Origin: Buddleja alternifolia
Lineage: Eukaryota > Streptophyta > Magnoliopsida > Lamiales > Scrophulariaceae
Direction: 5' to 3'
Assembly: GCA_019426215.1 (NCBI GenBank)
Contig: CM033396.1
Coordinates: 24,877,101 to 24,941,100, forward strand
DNA length: 64,000 nucleotides
This document shows positions 4,380 through 54,907 of the stretch, one piece after another (the first letter of the stretch is position 1; each line of letters starts with the position of its first letter). The notes beneath the pieces are model-generated. The model was not told the DNA's origin. It saw only the letters and a list, made by a program, of their open reading frames with translations, and ran no database searches. The position numbers and the translations under genes are program-made.

Positions 4380-5943
4380 ATTTCGTTCTTATCTACTTGG
4401 ATCTAAAGTGATTGTATTTTCTGATCATGCAGCTTTAAGACATCTTTTGGCGAAGAAAGAATCAAAACCGAGGTTAATGAGATGGATTCTTCTTCTTCAA
4501 GAATTTGATTTGGAGATTAAAGATAAAAAGGGGGCTGAAAATTTGGTGGCAGATCATTTGAGTCGATTAGTGCGAAAAGAAAATCTGGTGCCACTACAAG
4601 AATTCTTTCCGGATGAGCAATTGTTTGCTCTGCAAGGTATGGTTCCTTGGTATGCTGATTTAGTGAATTATTTAGTTTCTAGAACTTTACCTGATGATTT
4701 GAGTAGAGCTAAGAAAGATAAAATTAAGAGTGAGGCAAAATATTATGTGTGGGATGATCCATACTTGTGGAAGTTTTGTTCCGATCAAATTATTAGGAGA
4801 TGTGTGCCTGATTCTGAATTAGAGTCTGTCTTGAAATTTTGTCATGCTTATGCGTGTGGTGGTCATTTTGGACCTAAGAGAACTGCTAGAAAAGTGTTAG
4901 ATAGTGGTTTTTATTGGCCTACTTTATTCCATGATGCTTATGTCATGTGTAAAAATTGTGAACAATGTCAAAGGACTGGGAATTTAAGTCATAGGAATGA
5001 AATGTTTCAAACGCCCATACTTGTTTGTGAGATTTTTAATATATGGGGTATTGATTTTATGGGACCTTTTCCTTCCTCCTTTGGTTTTGTTTATATCTTA
5101 CTTGCAGTTGATTATGTTTCAAAGTGGGTGGAAGCTAAAGCCACCCAAACTGACGATTCTAAAGCTGTTGTAGGTTTTCTCAAGTCTAACATTTTTAGTA
5201 GGTTTGGCATACCAAAAGCATTGATAAGTGATCAGGGGTCCCATTTTTGTAACCGAGCTGTGGACACTTTGCTAAAAAAATATGGAGTGTTTCATAAGAC
5301 ATCCACACCTTATCACCCTCAGACAAATGGGCAAACCGAGGTGTCCAATCGAGAAGTCAAGTCCATCTTGGAAAAAACTGTAAATCCTAATCGAAAAGAT
5401 TGGAGTCTTCGACTTGAAGATGCATTATGGGCGTACCGGACAGCCTATAAAACACCTATTGGGATGTCTCCATATAGGTTAGTCTTTGGTAAATCGTGTC
5501 ATCTTCCAGTGGAATTGGAACACAAAGCGTTTTGGGCTGTAAAGAGTTGAAATTTAGATAGAGATCAAGCTGGTATACATAGGAAGTTGCAACTACAAGA
5601 GTTAGAGGAGATTCGCCTTGATGCTTATGAGAATTCCCGAATTTACAAGGAGAAGACCAAGTGGTTTCATGACAAGATGATCTCTAGGAAAGAATTTGTG
5701 ATTGGACAAAAAGTGTTGCTTTACAACTCAAGACTCAAATTAATGCCTGGTAAGTTACGTTCTCGTTGGTTTGGACCTTTTGTTGTGATTAATGTATTTT
5801 CTTATGGTGCAGTAGAGATTCAAAGCTTAGAAACTAACAAGTTGTTCAAGGTAAATGGACATAGACTTAAACCTTTCTATGAAGGTTTCCAAGAGCATAC
5901 AATTGAAGAAGTTTCATTGATCAATCCAACTTACTTGGATTAA
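4380..5943 (+). pseudogene. RNase H C-terminus and integrase, element A
   Basis: The frame reads [20 protein letters not shown] (end of RNase H) from about 4390, then NLVADHLSR. Integrase follows: zinc-binding HHCC region ([12 protein letters not shown] ... [11 protein letters not shown], about 4840-4980), then the core with [19 protein letters not shown] and [12 protein letters not shown] supplying D, D and E. The C-terminal part includes [18 protein letters not shown] and ends at the TAA 5941-5943. One in-frame TGA (5548-5550) splits the gene; G2 reads IKFLNFDSQ at that point, so it is point or indel damage. No chromodomain is seen, as expected for Athila rather than chromoviruses. Confidence 0.87.
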
Positions 5944-5951
5944 AAGGCTGC

Positions 5952-6003
5952 AAAGTCGAGCCAACGACTTTAAAAAAAGGCGCTGCTTGGGAGGCAACCC
6001 AAG
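5952..6003 (+). other. Tandem hairpins just after the pol stop (element A)
   Basis: Hairpin 1: AAAGTCG (5952-5958), loop AGCCAA, CGACTTT (5965-5971). Hairpin 2: CTTGGG (5986-5991), loop AGGCAA, CCCAAG (5998-6003). The same pair follows pol in G2 (51344-51391) and G3 (29065-29113). Hairpin 2 is identical in all three. Hairpin 1 changes its closing pair from G:C to A:T in G3. Confidence 0.7.
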
Positions 6004-6094
6004 AGTGGCTGAACGACCACCATCAGATTTGCTTTCTTTTTCCCTATCTCTTTTAATTTCGTTTGTTCATTTTTTTTTTATTTTCATTCTGTGT

Positions 6095-6135
6095 TGCATT
6101 GAGGACAATGCAGATTTTAAGTGTGTGGGAAATGG
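6095..6135 (+). other. Third conserved hairpin and internal PPT-like motif (element A)
   Basis: TGCATTG (6095-6101), loop AGGA, CAATGCA (6106-6112), then TTTTAAGTGTGTGGGAAA, which resembles the true polypurine tract region (TAAGTGTGGGGGAAT) before the 3' LTR. G3 and G2 have the same hairpin with different outer pairs, also followed by a G-run. Confidence 0.65.
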
Positions 6136-28775: not shown

Positions 28776-29051
28776 AGAACCAATAATGTCCTTGAGTCCT
28801 ACATCACGAACTCCAAGTTTGTCACTTCAATGGGTGAAGGAAAAAGAGCTAGTGTCCATAGCTTAGAGAATAGTCCATATCATTACCCGATGCATGGGGA
28901 AGAAAATATGATAAGGGTGTTGATGGACTTTAAACAAAATTTTGAGTGGATGATTGCTTGGTCCCTACTCAAGCTACTTCTCACAAAAACCAATCCAAGT
29001 TTCATTCTTGATTGGAGATTGAACAAAGCACTCATACGTCATCCTCCTTGA
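28776..29051 (+). other. Unassigned open stretch at the G3 left boundary
   Basis: Continues the upstream frame to a TGA at 29049-29051 (NNVLESYITNSKFVTSMGEG, HYPMHGEENMIRVLMDF, LNKALIRHPP). It is not present elsewhere in the window: the right S unit continues differently after ATTCTC.AGGAA (55110). It is either internal sequence of G3 or foreign DNA captured when the G3 5' part was lost. I do not recognise it. Confidence 0.4.
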
Positions 29052-29064
29052 GCTGACTTGGTAA

Positions 29065-29113
29065 AGTCAAACTAATGACTATAAAAAAAGCTCTTCTTGG
29101 GAGGCAACCCAAG
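29065..29113 (+). other. Tandem hairpins after the lost pol (G3)
   Basis: Hairpin 1: AGTCA (29065-29069), loop AACTAA, TGACT (29076-29080). Hairpin 2: CTTGGG, loop AGGCAA, CCCAAG (29096-29113). Same order and loop sizes as element A and G2. Confidence 0.7.
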
Positions 29114-29384
29114 TTTGTAAGTTTTTGTTTCTTTTTGCTTTCGTTTTTGTCTTGTTTAGTTTGTTTCTTTATGTTATGTTCAAGCATGCACTTTTGGCAT
29201 GCTTCTCTTTGAGTCTTGATGGTTTGTATTGTGAGTACATGACATGTAGTAGCTGAGTTTTGCTTTGGAAATTTTTTTATTGCGGATTTGAGCTTTAAGT
29301 GGATTTCACATGATTAAGGTTTGCTTTTCAACATCCTTGGTGTAAGTACTCTCATTTACCCTTTTTGATTGCTTATGGTTGAGC

Positions 29385-29428
29385 CAACATTGAGGGCAAT
29401 GTTGAGTTTAAGTGTGGGGGTGGGGGGT
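29385..29428 (+). other. Third hairpin and internal PPT-like G-run (G3)
   Basis: CAACATTG, loop AGGG, CAATGTTG (29385-29404), then TTTAAGTGTGGGGGTGGGGG. This is nearly the sequence of the element's own polypurine tract at 30747-30758. Confidence 0.7.
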
Positions 29429-30536
29429 ATATGAGTAGTGCTTACCGGTTTTATGTGTCATGTGATCTTTTTTTTAGCTCAAGTTTGGGGGGGAATCGTT
29501 GCTATTGCATGTGTTTTGTGCTATATTTTTTTTTTTTTGAGGAAAATCAAGCATAATAAAATTTTTGTTCTAGGATATTAGCTTGCCAATTGGTGCAATT
29601 AGACTTGGGAACGCGAGACAATGGCATGATATCTTGTATGTTTCTATTAATGGTCTAAAATAAAAAATTACACATCTTGATTATGCTCATTTCAACCTTA
29701 GTTGAGAGTCAATCTTCCTTAGATGATACACGTTGCACATAAGTCGAAGGTAGAGGGATTGAAAAGGGTTCCCAATCTCGAGACATGTGAGGAGCACCCT
29801 CGGATATATATATTAACATAGATTTTTCATGTTGTTTTGAGATGATTAGTTGCTTATGGGTTCATAATTGTGTTAAATGAATAAATGATTGAGATGAGAT
29901 TGGTATGACCTCGAAAAGTCGGTTAGGCCAACGAGTATTAGAGGTCATCAAAGCACCATTGCCTATATACTGTACTCGTTGAGCTAATTTAAGCTTTTCT
30001 TAAGCTAATCGGGAATGAGTTGAATAAAAGACCTCGCTTTATTTCGTGGTCCCACTGGGGTGATTAAGTTCGTAGGAGTCTCTTAACGCTTAGCACCCTA
30101 AAACCCTCTGGCTTGGGAGTTGTTGACCCAAAGCCGGTTGCATGGGTGGCAAAGAAGATCTAAAGGGGTAGAACATCGCACGAGGCCTTATGTTGTTATA
30201 AGCTTAACTCGTTCAAAGTGTGAAATGTCAATGTAAAGCAAATGGAAGTGAGCACAATTTAACCTTAAAGTTGCCTATGATTCGATGAGCTTTATGATCT
30301 ATCGAAAGTTGGTACATATGAGGAATGTTTCCGAGCATGGTAGGGATGCCTTTCGATCACAATGCCCTAGATCTTATCCCACTACACCCTTTGGAAATTG
30401 GTTCAATTCTAGGTGTTGAATGAGCATTGTCTTCATTTGTTTACGTATTGTTGAGCTTTATTGTCACTTGATTCGTGTCATTGCATCATAGTTCTTATTT
30501 CAAGTTGTCTCGGTTGATTTGAGCATAACATCCTTC

Positions 30537-30758
30537 GATTTTGTGGGTATATCACATGCAAACCCTCATGAGACTATAACTCGTCCTTTGAGGGAACTCA
30601 AAGGTTTAAAGGCTTGTTGCACATGCTAAGTGCAACCGTTTACTCCACAAAAGCGAGTTAGTTAGTAGTTTTCTTTTCGTTTCTCCCTTGTTTGATGATG
30701 TTTCCATATCCTAGAATTCTTATTGCTCGAGGTCGAGCAATTGATAAGTGTGGGGGGT
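30537..30758 (+). other. Conserved block and polypurine tract of G3
   Basis: CCTTTGAG-GGAA-CTCAAAGG (30585-30604) and GTTGCAC-ATGCTAA-GTGCAAC (30616-30636) are perfect hairpins. The tract AAGTGTGGGGGGT ends next to the LTR start TGATAAGAG. Confidence 0.75.
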
Positions 30759-32158
30759 TGATAAGAGTCATTTTTACATGTTTTTAAGTCCTTACATTTA
30801 TGTTTTAGATTCATTTATTGCTTGATTTATGCCACATATGCATATAACCTATGTGCTTATTGAGTAAAGGTGGAAAATCACTGCAATTGACGTAAAGTGC
30901 ACAAAAACACAGTATTTCAGTATATTTTGAAAGCGAATTTGAGGATATTTTCTTTTATAAAGTTGTACATCTATGCCTTGGCTTCACGTGGCAACTTGAA
31001 TCATCCAAATCTGAGGTCCGTGGAGAACGTTATGAAGAAAACAGGATTGATGCGCTGAAAAACAAGAAAACGGTTAAGACTTCGCACTGTGGCGCCTATC
31101 CGCGCCTAGGCACCGGTCAACTTATTCCCCAACCCACTTAGGCCACCTGGACCGCGCCTAGGTGCTACTTAGGCCACGCTTGGGCACCGGTACAGAGGTT
31201 TTGAAGTTATAAAGGCCAAAAATAAAAGGAAGAAGTGGGAGGTTCGAATTCAAAAGGAATTTTCGAGATTTCTTGGGATTGGTACCTCACTTTTCATCAC
31301 TTTAGAAGTGCAAAAGAGAAGGGAAAGAAGAGATTCAAGCCTCCAATTAAAGATTTGCTCATCAATTCAACATAGGGAGTTTCTTAGCTTTAGATTCATC
31401 TTTGTCTATGAACATGGATCTTATGCTTAGCCTTTTCCTTATTCATTTTATGAGCTAAATTGTTGAACTAGGGCCATGAGAAGGCCATGTTGTTAGTATT
31501 GTGATAATAAGATCGTTTTTCATTTCAATTCGTATATTGCTATGTGTTGTGATTTTGTGGTTGAATGCCTTACATATGCTTGATCACCATGTGTTTGATA
31601 TCATGCCTAGGTGAATTATTCAAGAGAAAGTTGACTTAGGGTGCAAGAATTTCACAACATCACCGACCAAATAGGAATTGCCCTAGACATAGGTAAAGAT
31701 TCCCGGGTGAAGTCGTTCGATTTTAATCGAGAAAGTTCTAGCTCTTTAATGCATGCTTAGTGGTTAGATTTCCGGGTAGACATACTTAGGAAACCACCAA
31801 TTAAGTATAGGAGTCTATCACGAGACATCGGTTATTCTTTACCTTAGGAGCTTTCACCATAGCAATGTATGTCTAACGAATTTGTAATGATCTTAGGATA
31901 GCAATACGCAACATGTGCCCGAACATGAGCCTTAGTAACCCATCCACCTTGGAAGTTCAATCCCTCTTTACTCTCGTTTTAGTTCTTCTACCTTCTTGCT
32001 TAGTTAAATCTCTATTTTAATTCCTTTTCTTATTGTCAATCACAAACTAAAATTCAAGTCTCTGTGGTTCGACAACCCGGACTTCTTTTTGTCCACTTTT
32101 ATTACTACACACGACTAGTACACTTGTTATTCAAGCATGTTAGGTATTAGCGTGTCAT
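30759..32158 (+). repeat. 3' LTR of G3 (1400 bp)
   Basis: Starts TGATAAGAGTCATTTTTAC and ends TAGCGTGTCA. Related to but diverged from the G2 LTRs: shared blocks include TCCGGGTTG-like GACAACCCGGACTT and ACACGACTAGT near the end. Confidence 0.85.
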
Positions 32159-48526: not shown

Positions 48527-51328
48527 GAGGAGCGACTCATGAGAGTATTGAAGACCAACAAAAAGGCCTTCGGGTGGAAAATTGCGGATATAAAAGGCGT
48601 AAGTCCAGCGGTGTGCATGCACAAAATACTCATGGAGGAGTCCGCAAAACCTACACGCCAACCACAAAGACGGTCAAATCCACAAATACAAGAGGTGGTA
48701 AAGAAAGAGGTTATAAAACTACTCGATGCAGGTATAATCTATCCTATCTCTGATAGTGCATGGGTAAGCCCGACTCAAGTAGTACCCAAGAAGGGCGGAA
48801 TAACTGTGATAGAAAATGCGAACAATGAATTAATCCCTACTCGAATGCTTACCGGGTGGCGTGTGTGTATAGATTATCGCAAGTTAAATGATGCCACTCG
48901 TAAGGACCATTTCCCCCTCCCATTCATTGACCAAATGCTTGAAAGGTTAGCCGGACATGATTTTTATTGTTTTTTAGATGGGTATTCCGGCTATAACCAA
49001 ATTGCCATAGCCCCCGAGGACCAAGAGAAAACAACTTTCACTTGTCCCTATGGCACGTTTGCTTATAGGCGGATGCCGTTTGGATTATGCAATGCCCCGG
49101 CCACATTTCAACGATGTATGATGGCGATCTTTCATGACATGGTTGAAGAATTCCTTGAGATTTTTATGGATGATTTTTCTGTTTTTGGAACCTCATTTAA
49201 CACATGTCTTCATCATTTGGACCGTGTTCTAAAACACTGTGAGGAAACAAATCTTGTTTTGAATTGGGAAAAATGTCATTTTATGGTCCGGGAAGGGATT
49301 GTGCTAGGTCACAAAATCTCCCAAAAAGGGATTGAAGTGGACCAAGCCAAGATTGAGGTAATAGAAAAGCTTCATCCCCCTACATCGGTGAAAGCCGTGA
49401 GGAGCTTTCTTGGTCATGCCGGCTTCTATAGGCGATTTATCAAAAAATTTTCCAAAATTGCAAAGCCGTTATCTAACTTGCTTGTCAAAGATGCACCATT
49501 CAATTTTGATTCCCTTTGTTTACAGGCCTTCATGACTCTTAAGGAGCTATTGATATCCGCTCCCATCATGGCACCTCCCGATTGGAGTTTGCCCTTCGAA
49601 TTGATGTGTGATGCTAGTGACACCGCGGTGGGTGCGGTCCTTGGCCAAAGGAAGGATAAGGTATTTCAAACCATCTACTATGCTAGTAAGACTTTAAATA
49701 ATGCACAAATGAATTGCGCAACTACGGAAAAAGGATTACTAGCCATAGTATTTGCATTTGACAAGTTCCATGCTTATCTCATTTTGAATAAAATAATTGT
49801 GTACACTGATCACTCCGCATTAAAATACTTGCTTGCCAAAAAGGATGCCAAACCTAGACTCATTAGGTGGATTTTACTTCTTCAAGAATTTGACATAGAA
49901 ATTAAGGATAAGAAAGGAGTAGAAAATGTTGTTGCCGACCACTTGTCTAGGATAGAGATTCCTAAGCCTGAGTGCGTGTTTGATAAACCTATTTGTGAGG
50001 AGTTTCCCGATGAGCAATTGTATGCTATACTTCATAATGATGCACCTTGGTATGCCAATTATGCAAATTATCTTGTCACAGGAGTTCTTCCTCTGGATAT
50101 CACTTATCATCAAAAGAAGAAATTCTTATTTGATGTGAAGCGATATTTGTGGGACGAACCATATCTATTTAAGATTTGTGCAGATGGCCTCATTCGACGA
50201 TGTATCCCCGAGGAGGAAATAGCATCAATTCTCGCCCATTGTCATGATATGTCGGTAGGTGGTCACTTTGGACCCTCTAAAACAGTGGCTAAAGTGCTTC
50301 AATCAGGTTTCTTTTGGCCTACTCTTTCTAAAGATGCATTCTTGTATGTTCAATCTTGTGATAGGTGTCAACGAATAGGTAACATCTCTAAAAGACACGA
50401 AATGCCATTGAATAACATGCTTGAATGTGAACTATTTGATGTATGGGGTATTGATTTTATGGGACCCTTCCCTAGTTCTTATTCCAATAAGTATATTCTT
50501 GTTGCGGTCGACTATGTCTCCAAATGGGTCGAAGCTGAGGCTTTACCAACTAATGATGCTCGGGTGGTTACTCGATTTTTAAAAAAAAGGATTTTCACTC
50601 GTTTTGGAACTCCTAGAGCAATCGTTAGTGACGGGGGCACCCATTTTTGTAACAAACAATTCGAGCACTTACTGAACAAGTACGGGGTACGGCATAAAAT
50701 CTCAACCCCATATCATCCTCAAACGAGTGGTCAAGTGGAGGTGTCGAATCGGGAGATTAAACGCATTCTTGAAAAAACGGTTAACGCATCTAGAAAAGAT
50801 TGGTCCCTTAAACTAGATGACGTCTTGTGGGCATATAGAACGGCGTTTAAAACTCCGATTGGCATGTCCCCATATCGCCTTGTCTTTGGAAAAGCATGTC
50901 ACTTACCGGTTGAGCTCGAACATCGCGCTTTTTGGGCTATTAAATTTCTAAATTTTGATTCTCAACTCGTAGGTACCAAGCGATTACTCCAATTACACGA
51001 ACTTGAGGAATGGCGCCATCAAGCGTATGAGAACGCCAAGCTTTACAAGGAGAGAACGAAAACATGGCATGATAAGCGTATTATTCCCAGAGAATTTCAT
51101 GAAGGAGACAAGGTTTTACTATACAATTCTCGCCTTCGACTTTTTCCCGGGAAGCTCAAGTCAAAATGGTCAGGACCATTTGTTGTATCTCGTGTGTATG
51201 CTTCTGGTGCCATTGAACTTATAACGGATAATGGACGAACCTTCATGGCAAACGCCCAAAGGTTAAAGCATTACATTGGGATTGACGGGTCGAGGGATAA
51301 AGTGACCATTCCCCTCCAGTATCTTTAG
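48527..51328 (+). CDS. Reverse transcriptase, RNase H and integrase of G2 (intact ORF from 48539)
   Basis: 929 codons open from ATG 48539 to TAG at 51328. [87 protein letters not shown], catalytic FMDD near residue 210 (49166-49174). RNase [41 protein letters not shown]. Integrase: zinc-binding [13 protein letters not shown] ... CDRCQRIGN, core [44 protein letters not shown], and the C-terminal [20 protein letters not shown]. All catalytic residues look intact. As part of a gag-pol frame with upstream stops it would not be made as full polyprotein unless the stops are read through; the ATG at 48539 is probably internal. Confidence 0.92.
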
Positions 51329-51343
51329 CGATTCTTTATCTCA

Positions 51344-51391
51344 AGTCGAGCTACCGACTCTAAACTAGCGCTTCTTGGGAGGCAACCCAAG
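51344..51391 (+). other. Tandem hairpins after pol (G2)
   Basis: Hairpin 1: AGTCG (51344-51348), loop AGCTAC, CGACT (51355-51359). Hairpin 2: CTTGGG, loop AGGCAA, CCCAAG (51374-51391). Confidence 0.7.
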
Positions 51392-51672
51392 TTTGTAAGT
51401 TTTCTTTTCTTTTTGCTTTCGTTTTTGTTTTGTTTAGTTTGTTTCTTTTTATTGTGTTCAAACATGCACTTTTGGCATGTATGTTTTTCTTATGCTTGAT
51501 GGTTTAAAAAGTTGAAGTGTTAGATATGATGCACATTTGGACCCCACCTTTAGAGATTCTTATTTTACTCGATAAGAGGAGAAACTTTGTAAGGATGCAT
51601 TGGAAGCTTAAGGATGTTCTTCAATATCCTTGGTTGTAAGTGTTCTTTTACCTTTGTGTATGCATGTTGTAA

Positions 51673-51710
51673 CAACATTGGGGACAATGTTGGATTTATG
51701 TTTGGGGGTA
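51673..51710 (+). other. Third hairpin and internal G-run (G2)
   Basis: CAACATTG, loop GGGA, CAATGTTG (51673-51692), then GATTTATGTTTGGGGGTA, which resembles the tract before the 3' LTR. Confidence 0.65.
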
Positions 51711-52767
51711 GAAGAGTATCTATTTTGAATATTGAAAATGCAATCCTAATTTTTAACTTGAATTTGGGGAAAGTTTGTTTGATATCATGTTTATATGCTT
51801 CTTTGTTGAGAAAATCAAGCATGAAAAAATTTTAGTCCTTCCAATTGATGCATTGAAATTGATTGACTTGGAAAAATGGCATGAATTCTTGAAATAATCT
51901 GAATTTAATGGAATATATATATCTTTGAAATTGCTCGTGGAGACCTTAGACTAGAATTGATTCTTTAGATGATTCACAATGCACTTAAATCGAAGGTAGA
52001 GGAGTTGAGAGGATAACCATCTTAAGACACTTAAGGAATTATTTCCTGAAATATTAACTTAGATTTCTCATAAGGTTATAAGTTGAGTAGTAATTTTATA
52101 TGCTAACAATGAATTGAAAAGGTTGAATTTTGGTATGACCAAAAGTGGTCAGGCTAATACGTACCGGAGGTGAAAAGTTTCATGCCTATATACTGTACTA
52201 TTATGCTAATTTGAGCTATGCTCAAGCCAAAAGAAGTGAATTGTTTAAAAGATCTAGTTTTATTTCGTGGCTTTTGATACTCGAGTGATTAAATCCTTAG
52301 GAGTGTCTCTACACTTAATGCCCCAAAACTATCTAGTTTGGGAGTCATTGGTCTAAAACTTGTTACATGGGTGTCATAGAAAGCCTAATGGAATAAAACA
52401 TTGCACATGATCTAGCCTTAATGAAGTTTAATGGAAATTCCATATGAATTGAATGTTGAATATTTGAGATAATGAAATTTAAATGGCTATGAGATTTTCT
52501 ATAATTCTTGTGCCTTGTGTTTGATCAAAAGTTGATAGATATGGGATTAATGTCCAAAATGTGGTAAGGATGCCTCTCGACTATAATACCCTAGATTTAT
52601 TTTTCACTATACCCTAGGGAGTCGTTTCAAGTATTGGTGTCACATGAGCAAAAGTAGTTGATATGTATATATATATTTGTGAACTTTAAAAGGTTGATTT
52701 TATGCCATTCATTCTTGTTGATCATATTGAGATGTGTTGATTCGGTTGGGATTGAAAATTTGCTAGA

Positions 52768-52982
52768 TTTTGTGGGTATATCTTATGCAAACCCTCACGA
52801 GACTATAACTCGTCCTTTGAGGTAACTCAAAGGTTTAAAGGCTTGTTGCACCCGCTAAGTGCAATCGTTTACTCCACGAAAGTGAGTTAGTTAGTTGTTT
52901 TGTTTTCTCCCATTGAATGATGTTGGTCTTGCCTTATAGCTCTTATTGCTCGAGGTCGAGTAATTGATAAGTTTTGGGGTGT
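52768..52982 (+). other. Conserved block and polypurine tract of G2
   Basis: CCTTTGAG-GTAA-CTCAAAGG (52814-52833) and TTGCAC-CCGCTAA-GTGCAA (52846-52864). The tract AAGTTTTGGGGTGT (52969-52982) adjoins the LTR; it has more T than the tracts of A and G3. Confidence 0.75.
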
Positions 52983-54907
52983 TGATAAGAGGTGTTTTTA
53001 CGTGTTTTTAAGATCGTAATTCTTATGATTTGGATTCACTTATTGCTTAAATCATGTCACATTTGCATTTAATAGGTGTGTTAAGTGAATACAGGTAATA
53101 AATGAGAATACATGAAGAAAAGGGAAGAAAAACGATGTACAAAACAAGTTCAAGCATGTTTTTCAACACCTAGGCGGTTTATGCATCTCCTACCACATTC
53201 GAGCGATAATTCCGTACATTTAGAGACCGACTTAGACAACGTTTCCTTCTATAAAGTTTTAGATGTATGTCTTAGCTTCAAATGGGAACTTGAAACATCC
53301 AAATCGGAGGTCTATAGAGATAATTGTGAAGGAAATACGATTGCTGCGCCGAACAGAGAAGTACATGTGCCAGGATACGCCCCAACGCCCTCCTAGTCAT
53401 GCCTAGGCATGGATAGTCCGAATGTTACTCCTTTTCAGCCTAAATTCCAGCATTATATGATGGGTAAGAATCACTTTTGGCCATAATTCAGCACATGTGT
53501 TGAGGGGTTGTCATAAGTGTGTTTCTTGGTAGATTTACTTTATGGGCGCTAAATCAGAAACAACCTCCATGTTGAAACGTAATTTAGGTATACTTAGCGA
53601 ACAAATGGGACAAAATGTCCTTCTGGAAAGTTGTAGATCTATGGTTTATCTGCACATGGGGACTTGAATCATCCAATTTAGAGTTCTGTGGAGAATTTTA
53701 TGAGGAAAATACTAAGACAGCACTGGAAAGCAAGAAAATGGCAGCATGCATGTGTTTTGTTGAAGTTTTCACATGGTTATGCTTGGAGGAATTCTTAAGG
53801 GCCGAAAGTTCAGCATTTTTTAGCTGGTTGGAATCTTAAAAGCCATACTTTAAGCATCACCTTAGGTGGAATTCTCATTGGGGAATTTTAATGGGAATTC
53901 TTAATGCAAACTTTAGTGGAATTTTGGCTATAAAAGGAGGGGGAACCCATACTCTTCATCATTCACTATCAATTTCAGATTCTTGGAGGAGAGGGGGCCA
54001 GCCCCTAATCTGATTTCTCCACCATTCATCACCATTCTTTATCACTCTTGGAGGGGAAAACTAGAGGAAGGAAAAGAGCTTAGGGATTGAAGGCTTAACT
54101 TCAAGATCCATCATTATTCACTTTTGAGGGAGTTTTTATAGCTTTTCATTATAATTATGTCTATGAACATGTGTATTAATTCATTTATGTTTTTCATATT
54201 ATCCATTATGAACTAAATTCATAAGACTAGGGCCATGTAAGGCCAAATTGTGATATATGCTTATAATAGATGATTGTTGAGGTTGTTCTTATATTGTTAT
54301 GTGATGTGAATTTGTGTTTTTGCCTATCTTGCATATACTTGATCACTATATGTTAGACTCTTATGCCTAGGTTAATATTTCGGGAGAAAATTGACTTAGG
54401 GTGCAAGAAATTCACATCATGACCCGTAACTAATGAGGAATTGCCCTAGACATAGGTAAAGAGTCCCGGGTGAAGTTGTTCGATTCAAATCGAGTGAACT
54501 CTAGTACGTTAATGCATGTTTAGTGGTTAGATTTCTGGATAGGAATATTTGGAAAATCACGATCTAAGCATAGGAGTTTATACGCGAGACATCGGTTATT
54601 CTCTACCCTCGGAGTTCTCACCATAACAATATAAGCGTAATTCTTCAACTAGAATCTTTATAAGTATAATTGATCAATTTGAACCTAGCATGTGCCTTAG
54701 TCTCCCTTTATACTTTGTGTAAAATCAATTGTGTAATCTTGTTCTTATTGTATGCAATTTTACCTATAATTTACTTTAATTATATTTGTTCTTTTTTTAA
54801 AATCATAAACTAAAATTCAAGTCTCCGTGGTTCGACAACCCGGACTTTTAGTCCACTTATTACTACACACGACTAGTGCACTTGCTATTGTAGCACGTTA
54901 GCTTTTA
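52983..54907 (+). repeat. 3' LTR of G2 (1925 bp, last 8 bases missing)
   Basis: Aligns with 43871-45794 throughout. It stops at GCTTTTA before GAAGA; the expected GCGTGTCA is absent. A short AG repeat at the break fits a microhomology deletion. Confidence 0.93.

Follow-up and report, generated by a model that had tools for sequence, protein, structure and literature searches.

A structured cis module of about 120 nt kept in Athila-type retroelements with and without detectable integrase

Two small hairpins stand in tandem in three retroelements of Buddleja alternifolia, raising the question of whether their RNA structure is under selection and what it might do for the element. Retroviruses and yeast Ty elements are known to carry cis-acting RNA structures; our literature searches retrieved no description of one for plant Athila elements. 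We analyzed a 64,000-nucleotide stretch of contig CM033396.1 (the window), which holds the three elements (A, G3, and G2), and searched the single genome from which it derives (853.6 Mb, 429 contigs). All three hairpin pairs lie where an earlier note on this DNA had placed them, and hairpin 2 is, as it had claimed, identical in the three elements (Table 1). The core of hairpin 2, GGGAGGCAACCC, has three exact matches in the window and one with two mismatches.

Elements A and G2 display the Ty3/gypsy order of gag, protease, RT-RNase H, and integrase in Pfam searches of their ORFs, with the protease match of element A falling below the Pfam cut-off and the gag of G2 matched only via its similarity to that of A (34.9%). 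RT and integrase matches in the window are confined to these two elements, and G3 has neither. A PBS-like stretch in element A starts at position 281, four bases past the end of the repeat at 276; for the PBS of Calypso and Diaspora, tRNA-Asp and a distance of 5 bp are given (PMC1142308). The name Athila was given in the earlier note, and the assignment should be regarded as putative, being based on domain order, the position of the PBS-like site, and an internal G-rich run, not on a tree. The element A copy also contains an earlier in-frame stop at 5548–5550, and its longest open frame ends 438 nt upstream of hairpin 2; a genome copy that shares its terminal residues (L005) has its ORF stop 45 nt upstream of hairpin 2. 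The C-terminal residues of the frame upstream of the module in G3 resemble those of two other copies (L011 and L013).

Table 1 Features of the hairpin region in the three elements (window coordinates)
Element	Feature	Position	Strand	Basis or remark
A	Terminal stop, TAA of the pol frame	5941..5943	+	sequence
A	Hairpin 1 (7-bp stem, 6-nt loop)	5952..5971	+	sequence, folding, alignment of copies
A	Spacer, GCNCT motif directly 5' of hairpin 2	5979..5985	+	
A	Hairpin 2, stem CTTGGG/CCCAAG, loop AGGCAA	5986..6003	+	4188 exact genome copies, reversed control 0
A	U/pyrimidine-rich tract (U-rich chiefly from ~6028)	6004..6090	+	
A	Hairpin 3	6094..6113	+	
A	G-rich run 3' of hairpin 3	6115..6129	+	
G3	TGA that would close a broken, non-pol upstream frame	29049..29051	+	by eye; 47 nt upstream of hairpin 2
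G3	Hairpin 1 (5 bp, A:T closing pair)	29065..29080	+	
G3	Hairpin 2	29096..29113	+	
G3	U-rich tract	29114..29190	+	
G3	Hairpin 3	29385..29404	+	followed by G-rich run 29407–29420
G2	TAG, end of the 933-codon pol ORF	51326..51328	+	48 nt upstream of hairpin 2
G2	Hairpin 1 (5 bp, G:C closing pair)	51344..51359	+	
G2	Hairpin 2	51374..51391	+	
G2	U-rich tract	51392..51458	+	
G2	Hairpin 3	51673..51692	+	followed by G-rich run 51695–51708

The exact 18-mer of hairpin 2 occurs in 4188 genome copies (2115 + 2073) against zero for the reversed pattern, a frequency that chance does not explain, and has no match in viral contigs. With the stem fixed and the loop left free, the genome contains 4720 sites (control 55), and since 4188 of them read AGGCAA, conservation of the loop is about as tight as that of the stem. 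The spacing of the two hairpins is likewise fixed, as a search pattern off by one base gave a single match. Near-equal spacing of hairpin 2 copies was seen at C1:20722595-20740198 (four at 5861–5863 bases) and C4:22690422-22699177 (three at 4392 and 4346), which probably reflects elements arranged head to tail.

Copies were sampled in three sets. An unselected set of 33 comprised the three window copies and 30 genome copies (L001–L030), the sole condition being an exact hairpin 2; 60 further copies (L031–L090) were picked for a changed 5' base at stem pair 2 or 3 of hairpin 2, and 20 short copies (L091–L110) for a changed 5' base at pair 1. Because the search patterns placed no condition on the 3' partner at the pair under test, the test is fair once the 5' base has changed; they did prescribe the inner pairs, the loop, and the GCNCT spacer, whose invariance in the selected sets is therefore uninformative. 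Upstream similarity sorts the 93 long copies into 25 lineages (a 75% grouping merged 77 of the 93 and was dropped). GCNCT lies directly 5' of hairpin 2 in 92 of the 93 long copies, a count that includes the 60 selected copies (L031–L090) whose search pattern contained it, and in 32 of the 33 unselected ones. Hairpin 1, in the form GTC-N8-GAC (14 nt), stands 5' of hairpin 2 in 31 of the 33 unselected copies compared with 12 of 2046 control windows.

Paired changes in the stem of hairpin 2 point to selection on structure. At pair 2, with the other pairs canonical, the genome contains 4188 copies with U:A and 434 with G:C, a compensatory double transversion, versus 30 mismatched intermediates of both kinds together (4652 − 4188 − 434). 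Among 30 copies picked for a changed 5' base at this pair, 26 carry G:C, two A:C, one G:A, and one G:U. The corresponding 30 copies at pair 3 are 18 C:G, six C:A, three A:A, and one each of A:G, G:A, and C:U; the genome-wide pattern at this pair (U or C with A or G) has 103 copies beyond the 4188, compensated and uncompensated pooled. The changed types, G:C at pair 2 and C:G at pair 3, each occur in four of the 25 lineages. Covariation at pair 1 is weak: the 20 copies picked from 77 divide into three A:U, 11 A:G, five U:G, and one U:U. Leaving the inner pairs free yields 4836 sites (background ~51) versus 4188 canonical ones, and the 100 matches listed, which were canonical, carried one or two decayed bases, or were chance sites, include no compensated inner pair; the inner pairs thus contribute no evidence for structure.

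Across hairpins 1 and 2 in 82 distinct copies, 88.7% of cells are paired, compared with 84.2 ± 0.5% after shuffling, and 49 cells are doubly changed, compared with 17.5 ± 3.2; none of 500 shuffles reached either value. These shuffles ignore relatedness, so that change events weigh more than copy numbers. The number of pairs with a double change (seven; 135 of 500 shuffles as high) and the number of pair types (18; 37 of 500) are not outstanding. When partners are slid by one to three columns, at most 49.7% are paired. In hairpin 1, the outer pair is A:U in 65 copies, C:G in two, and G:C, G:U, and U:G in one each, with 12 unpaired. Its closing pair had been singled out in the earlier note as a compensatory change; the A:T versus G:C difference exists, but the distribution over the 82 copies (AU 38, GU 21, GC 11, UA 2, unpaired 10) amounts to moderate evidence, and hairpins 2 and 3 provide the better compensatory changes. 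RNAalifold on the 82-copy alignment predicted hairpin 2 and not hairpin 1, and folding z-scores of 71-nt stretches were −2.26 for A, −2.79 for G3, −1.73 for another copy (L012), and an ordinary −0.71 for G2. The RNAalifold result and the G2 score render hairpin 1 less certain than hairpin 2.

Rfam reported no family at gathering score at the hairpins in a search of the whole window, and a low-threshold search of the element A stretch gave two sub-threshold matches (E 3.4 and 4.3). Elsewhere in the window, a snoR71 match at 1190–1296 on the minus strand (40.3 bits, cut-off 40), antisense within the gag ORF of element A, is probably due to chance. By eye, GGCAAC of the hairpin 2 loop and stem (5991–5999) is complementary to the PBS-like stretch (281–298), likely also by chance; this pairing between the hairpin 2 loop and the PBS, and another between the hairpin 1 loop and the spacer, involve three to six bases and were dropped.

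A third hairpin, with a CATTG/CAATG stem and an RGGR loop, is found 95–1490 nt 3' of hairpin 2 in 47 of the 93 long copies and was not found within 1.5 kb downstream in the other 46. The search fixed the loop and three inner pairs, leaving the outer pairs free. One outer pair is formed in 36 of 36 copies (CG 14, AU 13, UA 7, UG 2), another occurs as GC in 14, CG in 10, UG in five, and AU and GU in two each, with three unpaired, and the next pair toward the loop is formed in no more than 20 of 36. Taken together, 93.1% of cells are paired versus 80.4 ± 1.6% in shuffles, and 42 are doubly changed versus 16.2 ± 3.8, with none of 500 shuffles as high in either measure; the numbers of pairs and of pair types are not outstanding (362 and 384 of 500 shuffles as high). 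With paired changes in hairpins 1, 2, and 3, selection on RNA structure, which the earlier note had proposed, is supported more strongly than that note could show, and we regard it as nearly certain. As a rule, a G-rich run lies 3' of hairpin 3. An extra polypurine tract has been described in Athila4 and Calypso (PMC2829016), and the run is probably such an internal tract.

The extent of the conserved unit can be defined without folding. The DNA similarity between G3 and G2 (29064–30871 versus 51343–53096) begins one base 5' of hairpin 1, and everything upstream differs. Within 1.5 kb upstream of the module, 17 of the 33 unselected copies have an integrase match, eight have gag-protease instead, and eight have neither clearly, one of these with a weak gag-protease match; the 93 long copies divide into 37 with integrase, 28 with gag-protease, and 28 others. 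The description of the hairpins as following pol thus applies to A and G2 and has to be given up for G3 and for the 16 unselected copies that have no integrase match in that interval. Each of the 56 integrase-less long copies aligns over hairpin 2 with some integrase-bearing copy. Counted as copies and not as independent lineages, 39 of the 56 have a longest alignment of this kind that sets in at −34 to −20, at hairpin 1, nine have one that starts between −60 and −34, and eight have one that starts at or beyond −60; 42 of these alignments end by +117, about the end of the U-rich tract, and 14 continue for 345 to 1517 nt. The shared stretch therefore consists of hairpin 1, spacer, hairpin 2, and U-rich tract, a cis module of about 120 nt that is kept in elements without detectable integrase. 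Its retention where integrase is missing (16 of the 33 unselected copies and 56 of the 93 long ones) argues for a function in cis rather than a coding one. Long ORFs without a clear gag-protease or integrase match stand in place of pol in G3 and in seven genome copies (L006, L011, L013, L015, L016, L020, and L029).

The module is also placed with respect to translation. In 54 of the 93 long copies, the longest ORF comprises at least 100 codons and has its stop 38–56 nt 5' of hairpin 2 (17 of the 37 integrase-bearing copies, 17 of 28 with gag-protease, and 20 of 28 others); in the remaining 39, that ORF either is short or terminates at another place. Stop codon, phase, and the frame past the stop vary while the gap from the stop to the GTC of hairpin 1 stays at 13.1 ± 1.6 nt (range 10–18) in the 49 of these copies with a recognizable hairpin 1, a spread bounded by the choice of stops 38–56 nt from hairpin 2. 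The final residues of pol persist in some integrase-less ORFs, so the narrow spread may be partly inherited. Directly 3' of hairpin 2, all 76 distinct sequences have a U-rich tract, with a U fraction of 0.67 in the first 40 nt and 0.60 in the next 40, compared with 0.25–0.40 in other bins; the lowest pyrimidine fraction in the first 40 nt is 0.62. The stop of G2 lies 1.65 kb upstream of the 3' LTR, and a protein search with the frame past this stop gave no match. Farther downstream, strong acceptor-like sites (pyrimidines followed by CAG) are present ~77–120 nt 3' of hairpin 2 in six copies (L031, L032, L036, L042, L061, and L066). ORFs of ~100 to 212 codons, some of them truncated at the locus end, lie ~860–1210 nt 3' of hairpin 2 in 11 (L008, L010, L028, L041, L043, L054–L057, L073, and L081) and are possibly env-like or additional ORFs.

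What the structure does is a matter of weighing several readings. The earlier note had listed packaging, export, stability, and termination control, and the position relative to the stop codon, together with the adjacent U-rich tract, favors a role in termination or stability. Our best guess, offered tentatively and by analogy, is an mRNA-protection element close to the site of termination that would work like the stability element of Rous sarcoma virus (RSV). The module would act in cis when translation terminates on a full-length mRNA with a 3' UTR that is kilobases long. A ribosome covers ~12 nt past the stop codon, and hairpin 1 would therefore lie close to the front of the ribosome as it terminates. 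The hairpins and the U-rich tract may then recruit a host pyrimidine- or U-binding protein, and UPF1 and decay factors would be kept off the RNA. This reading leaves hairpin 3 unexplained.

The RSV element is located immediately past the gag stop, binds PTBP1, and lowers UPF1 association (PMC5580461). No sequence relation is claimed, but the settings are alike: a place close past a retroelement stop (here in the 49 selected copies), a very long 3' UTR (1.65 kb in G2), and a pyrimidine-rich region, the RSV element being bound by a polypyrimidine-binding protein. In contrast, the RSV element measures 400 nt (minimal 155), follows gag, and belongs to an animal retrovirus, whereas the module measures ~120 nt, has two small hairpins, and belongs to a plant element. 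Turnip crinkle virus provides a plant parallel, with RNA elements just past a stop codon that resist nonsense-mediated decay; its 51-nt stop-proximal element must, however, be unstructured (PMC10141005), whereas the structure of the module covaries. Athila4 and Calypso have their extra polypurine tract and a predicted env splice acceptor in the same region, between pol and the 3' LTR, and the available portion of that account (PMC2829016) mentions no hairpin module. The conserved palindromic repeats of Sireviruses (same source) likewise have dyad symmetry in non-coding parts of plant LTR elements, but Sireviruses belong to Copia, and their CGG-CCG cores lie upstream of the TATA box or env and are interpreted as DNA regulatory boxes, not as stop-proximal RNA.

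The nearest rivals of mRNA protection are packaging and then export or splicing. All three predict retention in non-autonomous elements, and only protection predicts a place next to the stop. Packaging or dimerization, in which the hairpins and a GCGC-type spacer would mark genomic RNA for Gag and autonomous partners would package non-autonomous copies in trans, we consider unlikely, yet the first alternative to be kept in mind. Integrase-less copies have to retain any cis signal for mobilization, as they do the module, the changed stem types occur in lineages with and without integrase (one of the four with G:C at pair 2 has integrase, and likewise for C:G at pair 3), and palindromes take part in Ty1 RNA dimerization (PMC4974528). 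The idea predicts neither the fixed distance to the stop nor the U-rich tract, however, and the Ty1 signals described in that source lie near the 5' end.

Somewhat below packaging stands a role in splicing or export, with the module either contributing the 5' portion of a splice acceptor that would yield a subgenomic mRNA or promoting the export of unspliced RNA. Predicted acceptors have been described for the env genes of BAGY2 and Athila (PMC2829016), and the module offers a U-rich tract followed in some lineages by CAG, as in each of the 10 copies that make up the L032 lineage (0.19 expected), with ORFs downstream in some copies. Against a general role of this kind, acceptor-like CAGs at the tract end are not enriched over the 25 lineages (9.9 versus 10.2 expected from shuffles) and are strong in single lineages only; a universal acceptor, with an AG past the tract in most lineages above chance, was rejected on the same count.

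The tract is a candidate site for the host protein UBP1b, a TIA-1 homologue, but it is improbable that it is mainly the place where UBP1b restrains the element while the hairpins modulate access. UBP1 binds oligo-U, and the tract is present in every one of the 76 distinct sequences. UBP1b is repressed by an Athila siRNA, and the authors of that work speculate that it sequesters Athila transcripts (PMC3276544). One would not expect an element to conserve a site of its own restraint, though, unless that site were useful to it too.

Retroviral readthrough signals place a structure at a similar distance past the stop, and the ~13-nt gap recalls them, but a readthrough signal extending pol is very doubtful. 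The 54 copies have 11 stop contexts (codon plus next base) in phases of 31, 19, and 4, in 22 of them the frame past the stop does not stay open to the end of hairpin 2, and the module is kept without pol; with neither a conserved stop context nor an open in-frame extension, the readthrough or coding explanation fails. Hitch-hiking of a recently spread sequence without function is just as remote: the copies are related and the shuffles disregard this, but recent common ancestry alone, which the earlier note had named as the competing account, does not fit the compensation seen at several pairs, the excess of double changes (434) over intermediates (30), and a module kept where both flanks are unalignable.

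With mRNA protection as the preferred reading, one may speculate further, at a probability that we hold to be low, that the Athila-type lineage has its own termination-coupled RNA shield, a structured and transferable post-stop cassette that any upstream ORF could use against decay, that has been kept repeatedly by parasitic elements lacking RT and integrase, and that is also a contact point in the conflict between Athila and UBP1b. The published speculation that UBP1b targets Athila RNA (PMC3276544) becomes testable at one site. The module is, moreover, a marker for non-autonomous Athila derivatives that searches with polymerase domains miss, and it offers a precise handle on the stabilization, export, or packaging of Athila full-length RNA with its long 3' UTR.
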